From a virus: DNA of 26,759 nt. Position numbers and translations under genes: made by a program. Shown here piece by piece: positions 1 to 20,187 of this stretch (the stretch's first letter is position 1; every line of letters begins with the position of its first letter). The notes below the pieces were generated by a model that saw only the letters and a list, made by a program, of their open reading frames with translations, had not been told where the DNA came from and ran no database searches. The stretch is taken from positions 1-26,759 of IMG/VR virus record IMGVR_UViG_3300023174_002593; one strand, given 5' to 3'.

Positions 1-269
1 TCTTTGACTTCAACTTCTTCTCTTGCAAATCGCTCAATGTGGTCAGCTTTCCATTTTGCATATTCTGAAGATTTGGCGTGAGCAATCTTAGTATCTCTTG
101 TGACGAATCTAGGATTGACACCTCTTGAATTAAGATATCGTGCCAATAGTTCGGTTTCAGTTGCTTCAGTTACATTGTATTTGGTCGCCCATGGATTAGA
201 TGGATCTGTACCAAATGTAGCATTAGCTACAGGATTTTTCTTAATGATATCTTTCATTTTTTTTACCAT
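1..269 (-). CDS. Hypothetical protein, C-terminus cut by window edge
   Basis: An open frame runs from an ATG at 269 to the left edge without a stop, giving about 89 residues. It begins MVKKMKDIIKKNP and contains TFGTDPSNPWATKYN and SRGVNPRFVTRDTKIAHAKS. I chose the ATG at 269 because GAGAGCAAGAA precedes it; an in-frame ATG at 257 is possible but less well served. The start overlaps the stop of the upstream gene by 7 bases, so it is probably co-translated with it as the last visible gene of the late module. The visible part is charged, with no signal peptide or membrane segment, and it lacks the F-x-x-x-(L/I)-x-E N-terminus of three neighbouring proteins. I do not recognise a family. Confidence 0.6.
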   Translation of the reverse strand, partial: MVKKMKDIIKKNPVANATFGTDPSNPWATKYNVTEATETELLARYLNSRGVNPRFVTRDTKIAHAKSSEYAKWKADHIERFAREEVEVK

Positions 270-1864
270 TTCTTGCTCTCAGAAGTTCCGCCAGCTTTAC
301 CTAACATCATTTCTGATTTAATTTTAGTTTTGTCTTGTACTTTTTTAAAAGCTTGTTGAGCTAAATTTCTAGCACGGCTCATTGGTGAATGTTTTGCACC
401 AGATTTATCGGTTACTGTTGAATCCATCTTTTTCCATCCAGGTGTGCCAGCAATTGTTGCTTCTTTAAATGTGTTTGGCTTACCATATTTTGGATCTAAA
501 TTATCGGTTCTTTCAACACCATCAACATGTTTTGCCTTGATTGAATTTGACGATGGTGTTTCATCTGGTTCTTGTGAAGGAACTTTTTCTGGATTTCCGT
601 TTCCTTCTTTATCTAAAGGCTTAACTCTTGTTTTAAAAGATTTAAAACTATTTGATCTGCCACCAGGCATGCGGCCAGCCAATGTATCTGTTGTTACGGC
701 ATCATCAGAACCTTCATAAGCTTCTTTTTGTGCACCATAATAAGCACCAAGAGCCATCTTCTTACGTTCTGCTTTAGATTTACCAGCAAACTTAGGATTG
801 TCTGAATGAACAAAGTCGTGAATCCAATCACCAGCAGTTGCGCCCTTACCTAGAACTTCATTAATCATTTCATCAAGTTGTTCTTCAGACAATTCTTCAA
901 TTTCTTCTTTGGCTAATATTTTCTTACGAATGGCACCAGCAACACGATTGCCGGCTTCTTTTGAACCGTATTCTTTAGAAGCTTTAGCAGCAATCTTAGC
1001 AAACATTTTACCTGGTTTGCCTTCGTCACGTTCTTCGATTTGTTCAATTTCTTCATTTGCTGTCTTCCAACCACCACCCATGGCTTTGTATTTCTTTGAA
1101 GCCCAACCATTGGCATATGCAGAAGGATATACAGCAAATTTGGACTTAGCAGCAGCTTTAGCCTTAGCCCATTTCTCTGGACTTGTGGGCACATTTTTTT
1201 CATCCAGAGATTCAACTTCTTCGTTTCTTGCTTTGGCAAGATTCTTTGGGTCAGAAATAGAATCTTTTGAACCAGACTTTACTTCAGCTGGTGTCAATGG
1301 CGCATCACCACGAGCTTTGCGAATAAAAGCAGGAATGTCAGAACGCTTCATGCCTTCAATCAATTTCTTTGCAAAATACATATCTTCTTTGACTTTCTTT
1401 TTGCCACGGAGAATAGCAAAATCTTGAGCATCAACTTTATTGTTTTTGTTAGCATCAATTTTGTGCTGGTCACCTTTGAGTTCTTCAGCAACTTTCTTTT
1501 TATCACCTAAAGCTTTTTTCATAGGCTCTTTTTTATCACCATCTTTATCAAAATCTAAGTAATCTGGCTTGGCGGCTTCATCGTACTTGCCTTTTGTTTT
1601 CATGTAATCTTCTTTGTCCTTCTGCATCAATTCTTTTGTTTTAGGACCTTTAAGATCATCAACTGAAGATTTAGTTTGATCTTGTTTAGCTTTTGCAGAA
1701 TTACCATAACTACGGCCATAAACTTTCATGCCTGTAGAAGTAGGTTCTTTAATTGGAGCGCCAGCCTCGTTTAGTAATACATCGGTTTGTTCTACGGGTT
1801 GTTCACCTAGAACTTTATTTACTGCATCAATCATTGACTGGCTTATTTTATTTTTTGCGAACAT
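263..1864 (-). CDS. Large charged low-complexity phage protein with EF-hand-like loops
   Basis: A 533-residue protein, very rich in Lys, Glu, Ala and Asp, probably largely disordered. I chose the ATG at 1864 because GGAG lies 7 bases upstream; an extension to 1891 would overlap the previous gene and lacks a better ribosome site. Two acidic loops look like EF-hand or dockerin calcium loops: DFDKDGDKKEPM near residues 104-115 and DANKNNKVDAQD near 137-148. Other segments look modular: VYPSAYANGWASKKYK near 245-260, ASKEYGSKEAGNRVAGAIRK near 295-314, and DWIHDFVHSDNPKF near 346-359. From memory, similar modules recur in uncharacterised proteins of aquatic T4-like phages. Several (L/I)-x-E triplets, the first ending near residue 21, could be prohead-protease sites. 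Position in the late module suggests a virion or head-core protein, but function is unknown. Confidence 0.8.
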   Translation of the reverse strand: MFAKNKISQSMIDAVNKVLGEQPVEQTDVLLNEAGAPIKEPTSTGMKVYGRSYGNSAKAKQDQTKSSVDDLKGPKTKELMQKDKEDYMKTKGKYDEAAKPDYLDFDKDGDKKEPMKKALGDKKKVAEELKGDQHKIDANKNNKVDAQDFAILRGKKKVKEDMYFAKKLIEGMKRSDIPAFIRKARGDAPLTPAEVKSGSKDSISDPKNLAKARNEEVESLDEKNVPTSPEKWAKAKAAAKSKFAVYPSAYANGWASKKYKAMGGGWKTANEEIEQIEERDEGKPGKMFAKIAAKASKEYGSKEAGNRVAGAIRKKILAKEEIEELSEEQLDEMINEVLGKGATAGDWIHDFVHSDNPKFAGKSKAERKKMALGAYYGAQKEAYEGSDDAVTTDTLAGRMPGGRSNSFKSFKTRVKPLDKEGNGNPEKVPSQEPDETPSSNSIKAKHVDGVERTDNLDPKYGKPNTFKEATIAGTPGWKKMDSTVTDKSGAKHSPMSRARNLAQQAFKKVQDKTKIKSEMMLGKAGGTSESKKW

Positions 1865-1878
1865 TTTTTTCTCCGTTA

Positions 1879-2367
1879 TTAGCAGTTCCACTTGCGTAAT
1901 GCTTTGTTAATTCTTGAATCTGGATTATTGGCTGTTTTAGCTGATGTTAATCGTTTCTTCATTCCGCCCATACGAGCACAGAATGATTTACGGCGATTTG
2001 CTGCCTTTGAACCTGGTTTTAATTTTGATGGCTTTGTAGTAACTGCCATACTTAGTTTTGAACCTGGGTTTTCTCTACGATAAGAGGCAATACCTTTACG
2101 ATTCAAACCACCTTCTGGATCTTTACCAGCTTTTCTTTGCCAAGCAGCTGATTCCTCTATCTCTTTTTTAATCCAATCATCAGGAGTTTTACCGTGTTTG
2201 GATACAAAATCGTCATGTAAATCTTTACCAGTAATATTATTTTTCTTAGATATGTCCATCATCAATTTATTAATTGATTCATAATTGTGATTATCTAGTT
2301 TCTTTAAACTTTTTTCCAAATCCACAACATAGTTACTTTCTTCTAAGAATTGTTTAAATTTTAACAT
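1879..2367 (-). CDS. DUF6321-type basic protein with capsid-targeting-like N-terminus
   Basis: A 162-residue protein. The N-terminus MLKFKQFLEES fits the T4 capsid-targeting pattern, with an L-E-E prohead-protease-type site at residues 8-10. The second half carries AWQRKAGKDPEGGLNRKG, NPGSKLSMAV and a Cys-containing basic tail, SFCARMGGMKKRLTSAKTA followed by DSRINKALRKWNC. That tail matches my memory of DUF6321, a small conserved domain of unknown function in phages and bacteria. The strong positive charge of the C-terminal half suggests nucleic-acid binding. The start overlaps the preceding gene's stop by 14 bases, and the ribosome site is weak (AAAAAGAAAA), so translation may be coupled. 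Inference: an internal head protein that binds DNA. The family call is fairly secure; the role is not. Confidence 0.8.
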   Translation of the reverse strand: MLKFKQFLEESNYVVDLEKSLKKLDNHNYESINKLMMDISKKNNITGKDLHDDFVSKHGKTPDDWIKKEIEESAAWQRKAGKDPEGGLNRKGIASYRRENPGSKLSMAVTTKPSKLKPGSKAANRRKSFCARMGGMKKRLTSAKTANNPDSRINKALRKWNC

Positions 2368-4243
2368 TTCGTTTTCTTTTTAGAATGTCGTTGGCACGAA
2401 CTTTATTATCATTTGGTACAACTAAAGGTTCTTTATTTGTAGCACCGTTAAGAGTTCCACTAACACCCATATCAAAGGCGCCTGGATCATCAATTGCTTC
2501 TTTCTTAACTAGCTTTCTAAACTTTTTAAAATCTTTATTATCATATTCACTACTTAGAGGGTTTACTGACCCACCAGACGGCATTGCCGTAGTAGAAGGA
2601 TTGGCATTACTGTATTCTTGGTTCTCACTATATGTTTGATTGCCAAGTCCAGCACCACCAGTTAATCCTGAGCCGTTTGTGCGTGTGTTCCACTCGGAAC
2701 CAAGGCCACTAGGATTACCAACTCTACCCGCACTTAAAGATTTATCTCCAAACTTTAATCTTTTTACTTTTTCTTTGTCCTTTTGGAAGTTTGGCTCTTT
2801 GGCCGTTGGGAGGATTTCGACTTTGGGGCCGGCTTCTTCGTGGTAGGTCCTAAATGTGTACCCGGAGTTTCTGGCAACGTCACCGTCCCGGACGTCATCT
2901 GGTCTGTTGAGCTTTCTTTGGAGCTGCTGGCCGGGGGCGTTGTCGAGCAAGGGTCTACGGTTGGTTTTATTTTTAATAAATCTATTAATGCTTTGAACAT
3001 TTTTATTTTCCTTAAATAATAAATTAATATTTAACTTACTTCTTCGATTCAACCAATCTTCGGCTGTATCTCCTACACCAGAATCCAAAAATTGATTAGT
3101 GGACTCATATACCTCGTATATATCTTCTTCTTTAGTATCTAAATTTCCTGTATTATCAAAAGGCATAAAGTTACCAAAGGCTTCCATGAAATATTTAGTA
3201 TTTTCTTGCGATTTAATCCACTTGTCCTGTCTTACTGATTCGACCATCATTCTGGACAATAGTGAGTTTCTTTCTTTACTTGTTTCATCTGTCGTGTTAA
3301 CAAATATCATCATTGTATCATAGCCTATATCTTCAAGTTCTTCTTTGATATAAGCAATTCTATCTCTATCATCGGCTGGACCATTAATAATCAATGGACC
3401 ACGGTTACGAATGGCTTCTCTACGGGGATCATTGGTCTTTTCTGATAGTTTTTGTTTGTCGGCCAAATAATCTTGTGCTTGGACCAAATTCAATTCAACA
3501 GACCTTTGTTCAGCAATGGCTTCACGAATAATGACATCTTTGCCTGAACCTGGACCACCAGTTACGAAAATTGCTTTGAATAGACCACGAGCATACGATT
3601 CATGTAAACCCATACCTTTACGAGTATCATGCATTAACTCTTTTGCATGAGTATCTGAAACATGAGAAGGAACACCTTTTCTAAACTCGCCAAAGTTTTT
3701 ATTCTTTGCGTGTTCTCTCATTTTGGTGCCAGACATACCTTCAGTACCTTCTGCATCAGGATCACGTTGACCAGCAGAGTGAACAGTAATCTTTTTAAAA
3801 TGATAATGTCCGTGAGCGGATTTTACACCATTGTATTTGTGTAATAATTCATGCATGCCTTTTACACGGTCAGAACCAACAACAACATGAAGATGAGTTG
3901 CACCACTTTTATAGGCATCTACTGCATGATGTAATATTGTTGGTTTTTCTTTTGATGCGGCCACAAAATTTGTACCAGAAGATTTGGTTGCCTCTGATAT
4001 TGGACCAGCAACATAACGCTTCAAATGTTTAATCTTTTGCTCAGCGCTTAATGGATTCTTTTTACTATCTTGTGTATGGGAAACAATGATAGAATGTGTT
4101 GCATTGTTTTTCTTTGCAATCTCTTTGACTTTATCAATCACTTTTAGATGACCCGTGGTAGGAGGACTCATTCTACCAAAGGTGATAACATGGTGTTTTT
4201 CACCTTGTTGTTCTTCTTTGATTGTATCTAAAAATGATTTCAT
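2354..4243 (-). CDS. Bifunctional nucleotidylyltransferase / P-loop kinase, probably head-packaged
   Basis: A 629-residue fusion. Residues 18-190 look like a cytidylyltransferase/NMNAT-type domain: PPTTGH at 27-32 is the nucleotide-binding (H/T)xGH motif, VVGSDR lies at 121-126, and MSGTKMR at 170-176 matches the usual (S/T)xxR signature. Residues 221-390 form a P-loop kinase with Walker A GGPGSGKD at 229-236. The last 220 residues are Gly/Ser/Asn-rich and probably disordered. This domain order recalls NadR (NMN adenylyltransferase plus ribosylnicotinamide kinase), but substrate residues are not clear enough to claim it; a polynucleotide or Zeta-like kinase is an alternative. The N-terminus MKSFLDTIKEE fits a capsid-targeting sequence with an I-K-E cleavage site. 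It starts within an ATGA overlap with the ligase-like gene, which suggests the two work together. Codons for residues about 428-488 are strikingly GC-rich. Confidence 0.8.
   Translation of the reverse strand: MKSFLDTIKEEQQGEKHHVITFGRMSPPTTGHLKVIDKVKEIAKKNNATHSIIVSHTQDSKKNPLSAEQKIKHLKRYVAGPISEATKSSGTNFVAASKEKPTILHHAVDAYKSGATHLHVVVGSDRVKGMHELLHKYNGVKSAHGHYHFKKITVHSAGQRDPDAEGTEGMSGTKMREHAKNKNFGEFRKGVPSHVSDTHAKELMHDTRKGMGLHESYARGLFKAIFVTGGPGSGKDVIIREAIAEQRSVELNLVQAQDYLADKQKLSEKTNDPRREAIRNRGPLIINGPADDRDRIAYIKEELEDIGYDTMMIFVNTTDETSKERNSLLSRMMVESVRQDKWIKSQENTKYFMEAFGNFMPFDNTGNLDTKEEDIYEVYESTNQFLDSGVGDTAEDWLNRRSKLNINLLFKENKNVQSINRFIKNKTNRRPLLDNAPGQQLQRKLNRPDDVRDGDVARNSGYTFRTYHEEAGPKVEILPTAKEPNFQKDKEKVKRLKFGDKSLSAGRVGNPSGLGSEWNTRTNGSGLTGGAGLGNQTYSENQEYSNANPSTTAMPSGGSVNPLSSEYDNKDFKKFRKLVKKEAIDDPGAFDMGVSGTLNGATNKEPLVVPNDNKVRANDILKRKRNVKI
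2781..2960. other. GC-rich island inside the nucleotidylyltransferase/kinase gene
   Basis: By hand count this 180-base stretch has 102 G or C (about 57%), in a window that is mostly near one third. It encodes residues about 428-488 of the minus-strand protein, and the excess comes largely from G/C-ending codons (for example GAC, GCC, CTC, GTC, AAG). The boundaries are sharp on both sides. The reading frame passes straight through, so it is not a disrupting insertion. Confidence 0.75.
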
Positions 4244-5427
4244 TCTGGTTTTTTAAATTTATTTGTTCTTAGTAAATTTGCTTTAGCAAATTCAGCTCTA
4301 TTAACTAATTTAGTTGGTTCGCCACCGTAGTTAACAACAAAGCCTTCTGGTCCTGTTGGTTTATTATTGATATGATGTTCTAAACCACCTGTATTCTTTT
4401 CTAAATTTTTCACTAATACATTTTTTGCTTGTTGTAAATGGTGATGCATATTTAGGAGATTATTATAGTGGTCAGAATTATTTTCAATATGTTGAACATG
4501 AGATTTGGCTTCTGTTTCTTTTCTTGCTTGTGCCGCTGGTGTTTTTAATTTAGATGCGGCCTTAATAAATTTGTTTTTTATATGTTTCTGTAAACCTTTA
4601 GCTGTAGGTTTTTCACCAGTTCTGACAGTTTGATTAATGTATGTTTCTAAATGACCGCCAACACCACGATGAGGTTCGGTGATGTTATACATTTGTTTAC
4701 CTGATTCATCGTGAATCTTTTGTGCAGCTGCAATATGTTTTTTAAACTGTTCTTGGTCTTTTTCAGGATAATTTATTTTTGATGCATCGTGTTCAGCAGA
4801 CTTATGCCAAACATCTTCATGTTGTTTAAAATTGTGAACATCTGGACTAGAATCTGCTTTCATTGAAGCAATATCTTTGCCATGATATTGTTGGTGGACT
4901 ACCACACCAAATTTGGCTTTACGAATTTTATCACCTTCTGCACCTTTGGCAGAATACGTGATTGTATTGGGTGTAAATGATACTCCATGTTTAGTTTCTT
5001 TTTTATCTTCACCACTAAACATTACATCACCTTGATATACACCTTTTTTTGGTGCCACTTTAGGTAAATGTTCTAATGCGTGTTTTAATTTCTCAACCAA
5101 ACCTGGTGCATGGCCATGATTTTTCTCAATATCTTTATTTGTGTAGTTGATTTTTGGATTTTTATTGAAAGCTGATTTTGATGCCACAAAAAATTTACCA
5201 TTTTCTGGGTGATGACCAAAAACAATAGATGGAGAACCATCATATTTCATTGTTAATGCGGTGCTGTGTCCGCCAGATTTAATATGTTCGTGTGCTTGTT
5301 GTAATGCGCCAACAGCATGGTCAAATCCTTCAGGTCCATTTTGTAATGGCCTATCCTCAGCATGGGTTATATGCTTGAGTTTACCACCCTCATCTTCTTC
5401 TTTGAGAAACGTTAAAAACGAATACAT
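4240..5427 (-). CDS. ATP-dependent ligase-like nucleotidyltransferase (DUF6267-like), probably head-packaged
   Basis: A 395-residue protein. The order of motifs matches the DNA/RNA ligase and capping-enzyme superfamily: motif I KYDG at residues 61-64 (Lys61 as candidate AMP-accepting lysine), a motif III-like GVYQGDVMF near 129-137, KFGVVVH near 172-178 (IIIa-like), EGFVVNY near 361-367 (IV-like) and TKLVNR near 372-377 (V-like). Long His/Lys-rich helical stretches lie between them. From memory it resembles phage DUF6267 proteins, whose substrate is unknown. The ATG at 5427 is preceded by AAGGAA and lies about 45 bases below a T4-type late promoter; an upstream in-frame ATG at 5454 has no comparable site. 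The N-terminus MYSFLTFLKEE fits a capsid-targeting sequence with an L-K-E cleavage site. It overlaps the kinase gene by 4 bases. DNA versus RNA ligase activity cannot be decided. Confidence 0.75.
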   Translation of the reverse strand: MYSFLTFLKEEDEGGKLKHITHAEDRPLQNGPEGFDHAVGALQQAHEHIKSGGHSTALTMKYDGSPSIVFGHHPENGKFFVASKSAFNKNPKINYTNKDIEKNHGHAPGLVEKLKHALEHLPKVAPKKGVYQGDVMFSGEDKKETKHGVSFTPNTITYSAKGAEGDKIRKAKFGVVVHQQYHGKDIASMKADSSPDVHNFKQHEDVWHKSAEHDASKINYPEKDQEQFKKHIAAAQKIHDESGKQMYNITEPHRGVGGHLETYINQTVRTGEKPTAKGLQKHIKNKFIKAASKLKTPAAQARKETEAKSHVQHIENNSDHYNNLLNMHHHLQQAKNVLVKNLEKNTGGLEHHINNKPTGPEGFVVNYGGEPTKLVNRAEFAKANLLRTNKFKKPE

Positions 5428-5445: not shown

Positions 5446-5463
5446 GCAACACACTTTGGTTGC
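5446..5463 (-). other. Small hairpin in the late 5' leader
   Basis: GCAAC and GTTGC form a perfect 5-bp stem with an 8-base loop, between the late promoter and the ribosome binding site. It lacks a following U-run, so it is not a standard terminator. It may be chance or a leader structure. Confidence 0.25.
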
Positions 5464-5471
5464 CGGTCGCT

Positions 5472-5479
5472 TATTTATA
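5472..5479 (-). promoter_or_regulatory. T4-type late promoter TATAAATA
   Basis: The minus strand reads TATAAATA, the exact T4 late-promoter core recognised by the gp55 sigma factor with gp33 and the sliding clamp. It lies in the only intergenic gap over 100 bases and about 45 bases upstream of the ATG at 5427. It separates the sugar cassette from the ligase, kinase and DUF6321 genes, which are therefore probably expressed late. The exact core occurs only one other time in the window by eye, inside a coding region. Confidence 0.8.
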
Positions 5480-13222: not shown

Positions 13223-13968
13223 ATCATCAGACTTTCTAACTCTGAAGCGTGAACTAGTTTCGCTTTACGATTCAAATAAAAATGTTTTTCGAATACTTGT
13301 TGAATGTTCTTACCGTTGTCCCAAGATACATCATTATCACCAACTCTAAACTCTGGCTTCCAATCTTCTGCTTTCCACACACAGTATAAATCAATATCAC
13401 ACAAGTCGGCCAACATACCAATACCAGTAAAGTTTGTAATGAATGGCTTTGTTAGATTTTTAATGATATAAGCATTTTCTAACATTGGTCTATTAAAATC
13501 AATAAATTCACAATTCTTTAGATGTGATAATATATGAGTTTCTCTACGGCTATCAATATCACCTATTGCCCACCTATCACCAACATAGTAAGTATCTTTA
13601 ATTTTAATATCATACTCTGGAGTTTTTACTACAAAATCATCATCAACTTCAAACTCCATGCCATAGTTATCTTTCATAAAGTTTTCATAACGACACGTTT
13701 CAATTGGCCGATTTGAATCATTCTTATCTTCACGAATTGGCCAAGAACTCATATTAATGACATCACCATACAAGAATATATCATCTTCAAATACAACATC
13801 GGTAAATAAATCTTGATACATTAAGAATTCTTTAATGCCATTGAACTTACGCATTTCTTTTTTAATAATCAAATCATATTTTACATATGACTTACTGATG
13901 CCTGACATTACAGGCATACCATTTAAAAAATCACCAAGATTGGCAGTTCCACTAAGATAGATTTTCAT
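13219..13968 (-). CDS. Hypothetical GT-B-like protein of the sugar cassette
   Basis: A 250-residue protein. I chose the ATG at 13968 because AGGAAA lies 6 bases upstream; the longer open frame to 14022 only re-reads the end of the previous gene. The N-terminus MKIYLSGTANLGDFLNG resembles the glycine-rich first loop of GT9/GT-B glycosyltransferases, and ITNFTGIGMLADLCDIDLYC near 194-213 resembles their C-terminal segment, but the D-T-G-x-x-H motif is absent. It is followed immediately by another probable glycosyltransferase. It could be a diverged or inactive GT-B protein. Confidence 0.55.
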   Translation of the reverse strand: MKIYLSGTANLGDFLNGMPVMSGISKSYVKYDLIIKKEMRKFNGIKEFLMYQDLFTDVVFEDDIFLYGDVINMSSWPIREDKNDSNRPIETCRYENFMKDNYGMEFEVDDDFVVKTPEYDIKIKDTYYVGDRWAIGDIDSRRETHILSHLKNCEFIDFNRPMLENAYIIKNLTKPFITNFTGIGMLADLCDIDLYCVWKAEDWKPEFRVGDNDVSWDNGKNIQQVFEKHFYLNRKAKLVHASELESLMI

Positions 13969-17391: not shown

Positions 17392-19062
17392 TTATGGTGC
17401 AATAGCCAATGCGCCACCGGCACCTGGTTCTTTATTAACACTGGTTTTTTGTCTTAATTCCATCCATAATTTTGAAAAATCATTTTGCCATTTGTGATAT
17501 TCTTCATTCCAATTGGCCATTGCTAAATATTTAAATTTTAAACGGTTTGGCCCATATCTGGTTGGTACAGCATAAATTACATGTTGTTTCTTTAAAACAT
17601 TTTCGTAAAACATTAAATAAAAATTATATTTTGAAATTGAATCTTTTTTAGATCCTTGAGCCAAAACTCTTTCAGCAATATAAATTAAATTTGATATATT
17701 TAAATTAACATCTTTAACATTTTCTGTGCTTAGAATATTTTTAAAACTATATTCTAAAATATATAGATCATCATCTTTGAAAACTTTACTTAAAGGAAAT
17801 TGTTTACGAATAGACGTGCCTATTTCTGGACCAACCTTTAATATAGCTCGTTCAAATGCGTCTACAACATCATCCTCACTAAAGTTATAACGATTGTTTT
17901 TTATTGATATGTCTTTTCCTGTTTTAACTTTACCAAAAGTTTTTAAAGTTTTTTTCAATTGATTTTTTTGATTAATTTTTGTTTTACTATTTTTTAATAA
18001 CTCTGAAAGTGCATATATGGGAAATTGATTTCCTAAAGAATTTTTAGTAAATCCGAGAACAGCGGAATAAGCAATCACCTTTGGTCCAAATTGATTTTTT
18101 TTAAGTTGACCCATCGTCATCTCTTGTAAAGAGTTATACCATTCATCAACATTAGCTGGTATTGCTTTTTTTCCTCCAAACAAGTCTTGAAATTTTACTG
18201 TATTTGTTTCTCCTGTAGCTTCTCGGCCAATTTTTAATCCTGCTGGTAATTTCGACTTAACACTTATTTTTAAAGCATCTTCCTGATTTTCTGTTCCTTT
18301 ATAATCAATCAAAAAATCAATTAATGGAAAATTTATTCTTAATGGTAAATATATTTTTATTTTATTTTTATTTTTGGATACGATTTTTTTTAAATCTGGA
18401 GGCATGTCCAATAACGTATCCAAAATATATCTATCTTGTTTTTCTATTAATTTTGCAAGATTTATTGCACTTAATGCTTCAGCAAAAAAAGCCATAGATT
18501 TGGATTGTACAACTGGATAATCTATTTCTCTGGTACCCAACAAAGATTGTTCCACAATATCATAAAAAGTTTTTTTTGTTGTTTCTGGTATTTTTTCTTT
18601 ATTGTATGTTAGATTCTTAATGTAAGTAATAATTCTATTAGCCATTTCTTGAGCTGACAACCATTCGTTTACGATGGAGGGTTTTATTTTTGCTGGAGTT
18701 ACTTCGAATTCGAATTCTCCTGTTTTTGTTTTTGTTACAGGTTTGGATGGATCTTTATATACTAGGCTGTAATTAATTTCATCAATAGAAACAACAGAGG
18801 CTTTTAAATTTTTAGATTTGTCATCAGTTATTCTACCCGAAACACCTTTACCATAATTAACATTTTTGTTGCCTAAGATTTTTATTAAATCTTTTTCCAT
18901 TTCATTTTGATATTCGGATCTTTTATCCGATAATGGACAAGAGATAATTTGTGTATATTGAACATTACGTTTAGTTCTTTTTATAAGTTGTTTAAATTCA
19001 TATTGTTTATTTTCAAAAAATTGTTGTAAATCATCATAAGATTGTATTTTAGTTGTGGCCAT
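17392..19062 (-). CDS. Hypothetical protein with PD-(D/E)XK nuclease-like motifs, AT-rich
   Basis: A 556-residue Lys/Ile/Asn-rich protein that I do not recognise by name. FFAEALSAINLAKLI at 192-206, PLIDFLIDY at 246-254 and LKISVKSK at 264-271, followed by TNTVKFQDLF near 286-295, fit the restriction-endonuclease core: helix glutamate, strand aspartate, then x-V-K. The usual second acidic residue is Ser here, so activity is uncertain. The gene is distinctly more AT-rich than its neighbours: positions 18301-18420 have 24 G/C of 120 by hand count. The start ATG has no clear Shine-Dalgarno (TAAATATTTCTATTTAAA upstream). It sits at the junction of the replication block and the sugar cassette. Composition and position suggest a recently acquired accessory gene. 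It may be a nuclease or a nuclease-fold defence or counter-defence protein. Confidence 0.65.
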   Translation of the reverse strand: MATTKIQSYDDLQQFFENKQYEFKQLIKRTKRNVQYTQIISCPLSDKRSEYQNEMEKDLIKILGNKNVNYGKGVSGRITDDKSKNLKASVVSIDEINYSLVYKDPSKPVTKTKTGEFEFEVTPAKIKPSIVNEWLSAQEMANRIITYIKNLTYNKEKIPETTKKTFYDIVEQSLLGTREIDYPVVQSKSMAFFAEALSAINLAKLIEKQDRYILDTLLDMPPDLKKIVSKNKNKIKIYLPLRINFPLIDFLIDYKGTENQEDALKISVKSKLPAGLKIGREATGETNTVKFQDLFGGKKAIPANVDEWYNSLQEMTMGQLKKNQFGPKVIAYSAVLGFTKNSLGNQFPIYALSELLKNSKTKINQKNQLKKTLKTFGKVKTGKDISIKNNRYNFSEDDVVDAFERAILKVGPEIGTSIRKQFPLSKVFKDDDLYILEYSFKNILSTENVKDVNLNISNLIYIAERVLAQGSKKDSISKYNFYLMFYENVLKKQHVIYAVPTRYGPNRLKFKYLAMANWNEEYHKWQNDFSKLWMELRQKTSVNKEPGAGGALAIAP

Positions 19063-19077
19063 TTTAAATAGAAATAT

Positions 19078-20187
19078 TTACCTAATGATTTGAATGTCTT
19101 TACCTGAAGTCCAGATTTCTAATTCTGTTCTTAATCTACCCTCTGCTTTGAGGGTTTCATATCTATTTATAGCTTTGGTCCGCCACCATTCAATTACGTT
19201 ACTCAATTCATGTTTGTCATAATTTTCACCAGGTAAAAGTTTATCGGTCTTACAGTTCATGTAATCTACTGTATTTTTAAATCCATAATCAGAAATATAA
19301 TATCGTTTCTTTTCTGTCAACTTTTTGGCGTTCTCAATCGTTAAAGAGAATGCCTGTCCTTCAGGTGATCCTTTTAAAGCAGCTTTGGTGAGAGCAATAA
19401 TCTTGGTAAATGTCCTAAGTTTTCTACTAGTTGTTGAAGTATCACCACCCAACAAATCTCCAGTAATATTCTCCACATAGTTCTTCAAGTCATGGTATCT
19501 TTGACCGTGCATCATTGGCACGATATCGGATTCTGTTAAACCTTTGAATCGAATGTAAGGTTTCATGCCATCATATTGTGATACTGATTTGGTACTACCA
19601 TACAAACTGGTGGTTTCAAACAAACAAAGATTCATACCATATTTTTTATTACAGATTTCTCTTACAGTATGGCTGGTACAGATGGCAGAGAGAAGTTTAC
19701 CACCTAAGTAATTAAAACCAAAAGGTTGTGATGGTACAATTACGAATCCCATAATACAAGCATCATTAAAGCGCTTGGCAGTATTCTCATTTTGAATCCA
19801 AACTTGTCCTAGGTAGTCATTACGAGGTTTCATATAGATGACTGGTGAACCTAAACGAATGAATCCTAGAATCTTTCCTGAGTTCTTTTCTTTGACTGCC
19901 AATTGTACATTTTTGCCAACTGGTGCTTTATTAATATGTGAACTGGTAATGGCAAGTAATGGTTCCCAAACATCATTTGGTATTTCACATACTTCAATAC
20001 CCATATCTTTTGGATGCATAGAGAAATCAGAGAACAAATCATCTTCAATTGGAAATAAAGAAGATGGCATATCAGCCACATTTTTCAGTTTCTCATCACG
20101 CATGTATTCTTCGGTACTTCCAATTGTACTAAAGTAATCATCAAAAGCTTTGGCACAATACAATGCTTCATCTCTACTCAATATCAT
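19078..20187 (-). CDS. DUF4338-like protein (possible Druantia DruA-like fold)
   Basis: A 369-residue protein. Central LGFIRLGSPVIYMKPRNDYLG (107-127, shown in part), GFVIVPSQPFGFNYLGGKLL near 147-166, and KKYGMNLCLFETTSLYGSTK near 181-200 follow the pattern I recall for DUF4338, a GNAT-like domain also present in Druantia DruA: a strand with an LP- or VP-type turn, a lipophilic K-L-L helix, then Y-G-x-x-x-x-L-E-T. The C-terminal 130 residues are helical and basic. It begins in an ATGA overlap with gp41 without a clear Shine-Dalgarno, so it is probably translated with the helicase. Role in replication, DNA modification or host take-over is unknown. The family call is by memory only. Confidence 0.55.
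   Translation of the reverse strand: MILSRDEALYCAKAFDDYFSTIGSTEEYMRDEKLKNVADMPSSLFPIEDDLFSDFSMHPKDMGIEVCEIPNDVWEPLLAITSSHINKAPVGKNVQLAVKEKNSGKILGFIRLGSPVIYMKPRNDYLGQVWIQNENTAKRFNDACIMGFVIVPSQPFGFNYLGGKLLSAICTSHTVREICNKKYGMNLCLFETTSLYGSTKSVSQYDGMKPYIRFKGLTESDIVPMMHGQRYHDLKNYVENITGDLLGGDTSTTSRKLRTFTKIIALTKAALKGSPEGQAFSLTIENAKKLTEKKRYYISDYGFKNTVDYMNCKTDKLLPGENYDKHELSNVIEWWRTKAINRYETLKAEGRLRTELEIWTSGKDIQIIR
19164..19171 (-). promoter_or_regulatory. Second TATAAATA, inside coding sequence
   Basis: An exact late-promoter core about 100 bases upstream of the AT-rich hypothetical gene (start 19062). It lies in codons for Ala-Ile-Asn-Arg near the end of the DUF4338-like gene, so it may be coincidental. 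Confidence 0.25.

Follow-up and report, generated by a model that had tools for sequence, protein, structure and literature searches.

Three consecutive operon proteins of a virus fragment carry a probable T4-type capsid-targeting sequence that recurs on diverse enzymes of aquatic T4-like phages

Three consecutive genes of a fragment from a freshwater T4-like phage, IMG/VR record IMGVR_UViG_3300023174_002593 (the window, 26,759 bases, analysed over its whole length), encode proteins with N-termini that very probably are T4-type capsid-targeting sequences (CTS). The proteins would be loaded into the prohead core, cut by the gp21 protease after residue 10 and ejected with the DNA. A sequence-only reading had described the three open reading frames (ORFs), and we find them as claimed, all on the minus strand, at 4240-5427 (cargo 1, MYSFLTFLKEE), 2354-4243 (cargo 2, MKSFLDTIKEE) and 1879-2367 (cargo 3, MLKFKQFLEES). 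Cargo 1 overlaps cargo 2 by 4 nucleotides and cargo 2 overlaps cargo 3 by 14. The putative tags, each with a cut predicted before residue 11, lie at 5398..5427, 4214..4243 and 2338..2367, also on the minus strand. The central claim of that reading was that a targeting sequence with a gp21 site marks packaged proteins, and by analogy the virion proteomes of relatives, the columns identified by T4 mutagenesis, the unrelated families that carry the tag, the gp23 sites and the late promoters all agree with it.

Mutagenesis of the T4 sequence has assigned targeting to residues 4 and 7 and processing to residues 8 and 10 (PMC9026906). Judged by sequence, the window tags agree with T4 at all four positions except for Thr7 in cargo 2. 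Cargoes 1 and 3 have both aromatic residues, F4 and F7, while cargo 2 has F4 but Thr at residue 7; the protease-site residues are L8 and E10, I8 and E10, and L8 and E10 in cargoes 1, 2 and 3. The T4-like pattern with a protease site claimed for the three stands at F4, L/I8 and E10, and Thr7 of cargo 2 is the one departure from T4.

Tags were collected from IMG/VR contigs using the pattern M-x-x-F-x-x-F-[LIFM]-x-E behind the T4-type late promoter TATAAATA. This gave at least 121 matches, and among the matches listed 120 of 121 open real ORFs of at least 60 residues or run off the contig. As the strict pattern missed relaxed tags, we used a position matrix instead. It was trained on N-termini from other contigs, 129 after removal of redundancy, and none of them came from the window, T4 or cultured cyanophages. 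Cargoes 1, 2 and 3 scored 17.1, 13.5 and 22.9, while 99.9% of 32,936 internal sequence windows scored below 7.3. All remaining genes of the window, among them the fourth of the operon, stayed below the background threshold of the matrix, which bears out the claim that none of the replication or sugar genes starts this way. The positions left free by the pattern were not random, with K, L or I at residue 2, S, T, N, K or R at 3, K, S or L at 5, Q, E or S at 6, T, S or K at 9 and A, S or G at 11. The consensus, MKSFKQFLTEA, corresponds to T4 MKTYQEFIAEA, the start of ipII and ipIII, which fit the positions not fixed by the search (P 6e-4). Run over 50 kb of T4, the matrix placed ipII and ipIII on top and ipI third.

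Counting promoter-plus-tag matches in viral contigs against shifted or scrambled patterns proved unusable, as each gave at least 120 matches and the supposed controls picked up genuine tags that were one residue longer or stood behind other promoters. We relied instead on an arrangement test, on loci found without the motif and on virion proteomes. Among 1228 genes from nine genomes or stretches, F4-F7-[LI]8-E10 occurred in 9, more than any other of the 1512 ways of placing these residues, for which the mean was 0.06.

The published virion proteomes are the strongest test, because they were made by others without knowledge of the motif. In S-CREM2 (PMC10665884, Table 3), 48 of the 215 genes with readable N-termini have products in the virion. 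Ranked by tag score, the top five genes all belong to this set, compared with 43/210 of the others (Fisher p 4.7e-4). These are the cytidylyltransferase gp154 (MKNFSSFLTEA), the kinase gp14 (VKRFDAFLTEE), gp136 (MQTFSMFFSED), the SAM lyase gp6 (MKDFDSFLEEF) and gp13 (MKDLHSFLTEQ), and none has a T4 structural homologue. A further virion-detected protein, gp12 (L095:7704-10313), has a tag-like RFASFMAEA at residues 18-26; its 'Cas9' nuclease label was discarded, as no Pfam family matched. The late promoter TATAAATA occurs at 13361(-) with gp15, gp14, gp13 and gp12 downstream, at 5110(-) before gp6 and at 124580(+) before gp154. Other virion-detected relatives start in the same way: the S-SM1 cytidylyltransferase T4-GC190 begins MKKFSAFLNEA (MKKFSAFLNEAERS; PMC3037559), the S-SCSM1 NMNAT begins MKSFLQFLKEA (MKSFLQFLKEAAES; PMC9602691) and has the top score of its stretch, and the S-CRM01 kinase, in virions according to PMC10665884, has the N-terminus MISFDQFLSEKK. 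The S-CREM2 DUF6267 protein gp87, which lacks the tag, is not in the virion list, and the untagged PA5oct cytidyltransferase is not marked as detected by mass spectrometry when its neighbours are, each non-detection being weak evidence on its own.

Several points weigh against packaging of the window proteins. The authors of the proteomes warn that virions purified in CsCl may have abundant proteins adhering to them, and detection in relatives could be such carry-over of abundant late proteins, the tag being unrelated to packaging. We consider this quite improbable: in S-CREM2 the tag divides detected from undetected proteins, and proteins of these families that lack the tag do not appear among those detected. 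S-SCSM1 gene 30 has a strong tag, yet its 106-residue product was not detected in virions. Virion presence is known for the tagged relatives (S-CREM2, S-SM1 and S-SCSM1) and would extend to the phage of the window by analogy, and the literature accessible to our search reports no cleaved N-terminus for the aquatic relatives. As the record is a fragment, the head genes are not visible in it; gp21, gp22 and gp23 are absent from its 26.8 kb and were found only in relatives. The N-termini are degenerate in Pelagibacter phage HTVC008M, which carries these genes too. Finally, the tag of cargo 2 may be weak, given Thr at a targeting residue where close relatives mostly have Leu or Ile.

The tag is conserved with the proteins that carry it. 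Among 72 loci fetched solely by similarity to cargo 1, and thus blind to the motif, it was retained in 60 of 65 DUF6267 proteins, 57 of 64 cytidylyltransferases and 27 of 34 DUF6321 proteins. We prefer these counts to the conservation figures from alignment A2, because the alignment includes some loci fetched by the tag pattern. In A2, the 55 DUF6267 homologues of cargo 1, down to about 30% identity, have F4 in 98%, F7 in 91% and E10 in 98%, and the homologues of cargo 2 have F4 in 100% and E10 in 97%, with Tyr, Phe or Leu at residue 7 in most. The conserved columns are those to which T4 mutagenesis assigned a role, which supports a function in targeting and processing. Directly behind the tag, residues 11-15 of the 55 DUF6267 proteins are gapped or variable. 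Codons vary synonymously at the processing residues, with all six Leu codons at residue 8 and GAA or GAG at residue 10. In the AlphaFold model of DUF6267 the predicted local distance difference test (pLDDT) is below 50 for residues 1-14 and about 90 for most of the remainder, with the folded domain starting near residue 19. Conserved tag, variable linker, synonymous codons and a disordered (low-pLDDT) N-terminus together give the tag, in sequence and model, the marks of a detachable peptide. The N-terminal stretch could instead be part of the enzyme folds or an N-terminal regulatory helix, alike through shared descent, and within each family it is indeed inherited together with the domain. That explanation is very improbable, as the stretch lies outside the modelled fold and recurs on about 90 clusters with no detectable mutual similarity, and as untagged homologues exist (S-SM1 GC71, S-CREM2 gp87, XG4 and PA5oct).

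A perfect T4-type late promoter, TATAAATA, lies at 5472..5479 on the minus strand, 44 nucleotides upstream of the cargo 1 ATG. The start at 5427 is well supported because an AAGGA ribosome-binding site precedes it and homologues start at the same place; for the longer alternative, a GTG at 5454, such support is lacking. The claim that all three genes sit directly behind the late promoter is right for the first, the other two being downstream in the same operon. The promoter suggests that the operon is transcribed late. Across the genes compared, those with a CTS were about five times more often directly behind TATAAATA (7/33 compared with 59/1180, p 0.0014), an enrichment behind late promoters. 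The position of tags behind late promoters and good ribosome-binding sites would also fit a general feature of late genes, such as a translation-start or codon bias. This is scarcely credible: conservation is at the level of the amino acids while the codons vary, and tail, baseplate and capsid genes lack the tag. The fourth gene of the operon (263..1864, minus strand) served as an internal negative control. It has no CTS and its motif-blind homologues have the tag in 3 of 36, so we rejected the idea that it too is tagged. A second perfect TATAAATA occurs in the window at 19164-19171(-), upstream of a 556-residue ORF (17392-19062) with no PHROG match.

The tag is modular. The 284 tagged ORFs fell into 90 sequence clusters that share no detectable similarity. 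Comparison of 78 representatives with Pfam gave matches that include cytidylyltransferase, DUF6267, DUF6321, SAM lyase, RimK, PolyA polymerase, ADP-ribosyltransferase, Acb1 (anti-CBASS), zeta-toxin-like kinase, HD, HAD phosphatase and phiKZ internal head protein. PADLOC made a single match among the census proteins, to a type II restriction enzyme. The tagged homologues of Acb1, ADP-ribosyltransferase, RimK, PolyA polymerase, zeta-toxin-like kinase and restriction enzyme suggest, from their sequences, packaged anti-defence proteins. DUF6321 occurs with several different parts between tag and domain. A short domain resembling 'AKKLGLKGDGHGGWVDxxG' was seen behind the tag in many otherwise different cargoes, including kinases and cytidylyltransferases (L369, L395, L408, L496, L219:48256-49419, L552:819-2048 and L095:10579-12846), and is possibly a second packaging or adaptor module.

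The protease side of the system is also visible in relatives. Their gp23 keeps L-x-E near the position of the T4 gp23 cut, as LTE before A in S-CREM2, LTE in S-SM1, FLSE before A in Melnitz, FLAE before A in S-SCSM1, LGE in HTVC008M and LNE in two freshwater relatives. In Melnitz, gp23 and the gp15 tag (MQGFKTFLSEA) share the string FLSEA, and an S77 prohead protease is encoded in relatives G001 and G002. Cargo 3 has a possible second protease site, I70-E-E72 before S73, at the start of DUF6321 (2152..2160, minus strand), and the domain is likewise directly preceded by (L/I/V)-x-E in L036, L051, L063, L391 and others. Of 24 distinct homologues, which differ in their upstream parts, 15 have [LIVMF]xE immediately followed by xAA or xAV where DUF6321 starts, as if the domain were released by the prohead protease. 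The fourth operon gene has 10 L/I-x-E sites, compared with 3.7 in shuffles (P 0.003), and may encode a polyprotein cut by the same protease. Its sites separate short basic segments, one of which stands alone behind a CTS in L063. Between the portal and protease genes of one relative lies a 76-residue gene, L087 (G001:C1:101936-102166), which starts MKLFSNFRQQLDEA and may encode a prohead core protein like T4 gp67.

The sequence-only reading had described the three proteins as a ligase-like enzyme, a nucleotidylyltransferase/kinase and a basic protein, and these assignments are all supported. Cargo 1 (395 residues, DUF6267) has the motifs of covalent nucleotidyltransferases: motif I, KxDG (K61-x-D63-G64), motif IV, EGxV (E361-G-x-V), and motif V, K373. 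Across 55 homologues K61, D63, E361, G362, V364 and K373 are invariant and G64 is kept in at least 90%. Its modelled fold matched Naegleria RNA ligase best (Z 9.0), with T4 RNA ligase 2 at Z 7.8, and the best 50 matches listed were all RNA, tRNA or DNA ligases; Foldseek alone was marginal (E 0.02). Sequence and model thus support the prediction of a divergent covalent nucleotidyltransferase with an RNA-ligase fold. Cargo 2 (629 residues) is predicted, from Pfam matches and fold, to be a HIGH-type nucleotidylyltransferase (about 17-210) followed by a P-loop kinase (about 220-390) and a disordered tail. Its CTP_transf_like domain matched PF01467 at 29.2 bits (curated cut-off 21), and its fold matches include nicotinic acid mononucleotide adenylyltransferase and PPAT. 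Sequence comparison with solved structures gave no clear relative for either cargo 1 or cargo 2. Cargo 3 (162 residues) is a basic DUF6321 protein.

That basic character leaves some room for the tagged proteins to enter the prohead and serve in the head itself, as parts of the core or scaffold or as DNA-binding proteins, rather than as enzymes delivered to the host. T4 IPIII affects head assembly (PMC9026906), and one census member matches the phiKZ_IP internal head proteins. We think this unlikely, as tagged relatives are enzymes with plausible work in a host (SAM lyase, kinases, Acb1, ADP-ribosyltransferase and restriction-enzyme-like proteins) and the catalytic residues of cargo 1 are invariant.

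Delivery to the host by way of the head would run as follows. Late in infection the operon would be transcribed from the TATAAATA promoter, and residues 1-10, chiefly Phe4 and Phe7, would dock the proteins to the prohead core; the promoter, the conservation and knowledge of T4 point to both steps. The RNA-ligase-like enzyme, the nucleotidylyltransferase-kinase and the basic DUF6321 protein would thus be built into the prohead, a step for which the relatives are the model. A gp21 homologue would then cleave after (L/I)-x-E at residue 10, freeing the cargo to travel with the packaged DNA, be ejected into the next host and act ahead of any phage gene expression. Size should be no obstacle, because the T4 system can eject even a fusion of IPIII with beta-galactosidase (PMC9026906). 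As to roles in the host, repair of cut RNA or of NAD would be our guesses. On this view the tag is a modular address, attached by aquatic T4-like phages to enzymes of many unrelated kinds.

The T4 capsid-targeting sequence of IPI, IPII and IPIII was reportedly described by Mullaney and Black. The T4 internal proteins share with the window proteins a 10-residue N-terminal tag with an aromatic residue at 4, L/I at 8, E at 10 and, in cargoes 1 and 3, a second aromatic residue at 7, and likewise place many unrelated mature proteins behind it. However, T4 packages small basic proteins and Alt, while cargoes 1 and 2 of the window are predicted large enzymes and the cargoes of relatives span tens of families; the tags here mostly have Phe4 where T4 has Tyr4, and the phages are Kyanoviridae-like whereas T4 belongs to Straboviridae. 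The head ejection proteins of phiKZ and SPN3US also have N-terminal propeptides that are cut by a gp21-type protease after x-x-E before ejection (PMC5694885), but most of these exceed 100 residues and the cargo is different. Cargo 1 shares its fold and KxDG/EGxV/K motifs with T4 RNA ligases 1 and 2 and Naegleria RNA ligase, but differs in its tag, a large helical insert (222-342) and an identity of about 12%, the likeness being one of sequence and model.

Head-delivered nucleotidyltransferases had been put forward as a new cargo class. This has to be trimmed, because cytidylyltransferase/NMNAT-like proteins have been on record in cyanophage virions since 2010, with the tag not noticed (PMC3037559, PMC9602691, PMC10665884). 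Homologous virion-detected enzymes are known from S-SM1, S-CBWM1, S-SCSM1 and S-CREM2, and the three sequences that we examined, from S-SM1, S-SCSM1 and S-CREM2, all carry the tag; they were published without tag or packaging mechanism, and the authors left contamination open. Three things appear to be new: that these phages have the tag, that they put it on scores of unrelated enzymes, and that it can predict which proteins are in the virion. Within the open-access literature, to which our search was confined, no paper joins capsid targeting with cyanophages beyond one passing mention in a T4 review.

T4-like phages are among the commonest viruses of seas and lakes, and very little is known of which proteins enter the host with their DNA. 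Should the tag do what it does in T4, a short pattern at the N-terminus would predict the injected protein set from sequence, explain the puzzling enzymes in cyanophage virions and provide many candidates for anti-defence proteins active ahead of gene expression. We lean, with some reserve, towards a broader picture in which one 10-residue address, common to T4 and to marine and freshwater T4-like phages, marks a large and so far hidden stock of injected effectors that act in the first minutes (anti-CBASS Acb1, ADP-ribosyltransferases, SAM lyases, kinases, and RNA-ligase and nucleotidyltransferase enzymes), with the window operon as an injected nucleic-acid or NAD repair kit. Such a shared address would allow injected proteins to be read from genomes by their N-termini, and the tag is probably a readable guide to the proteins that these viruses inject into their hosts.

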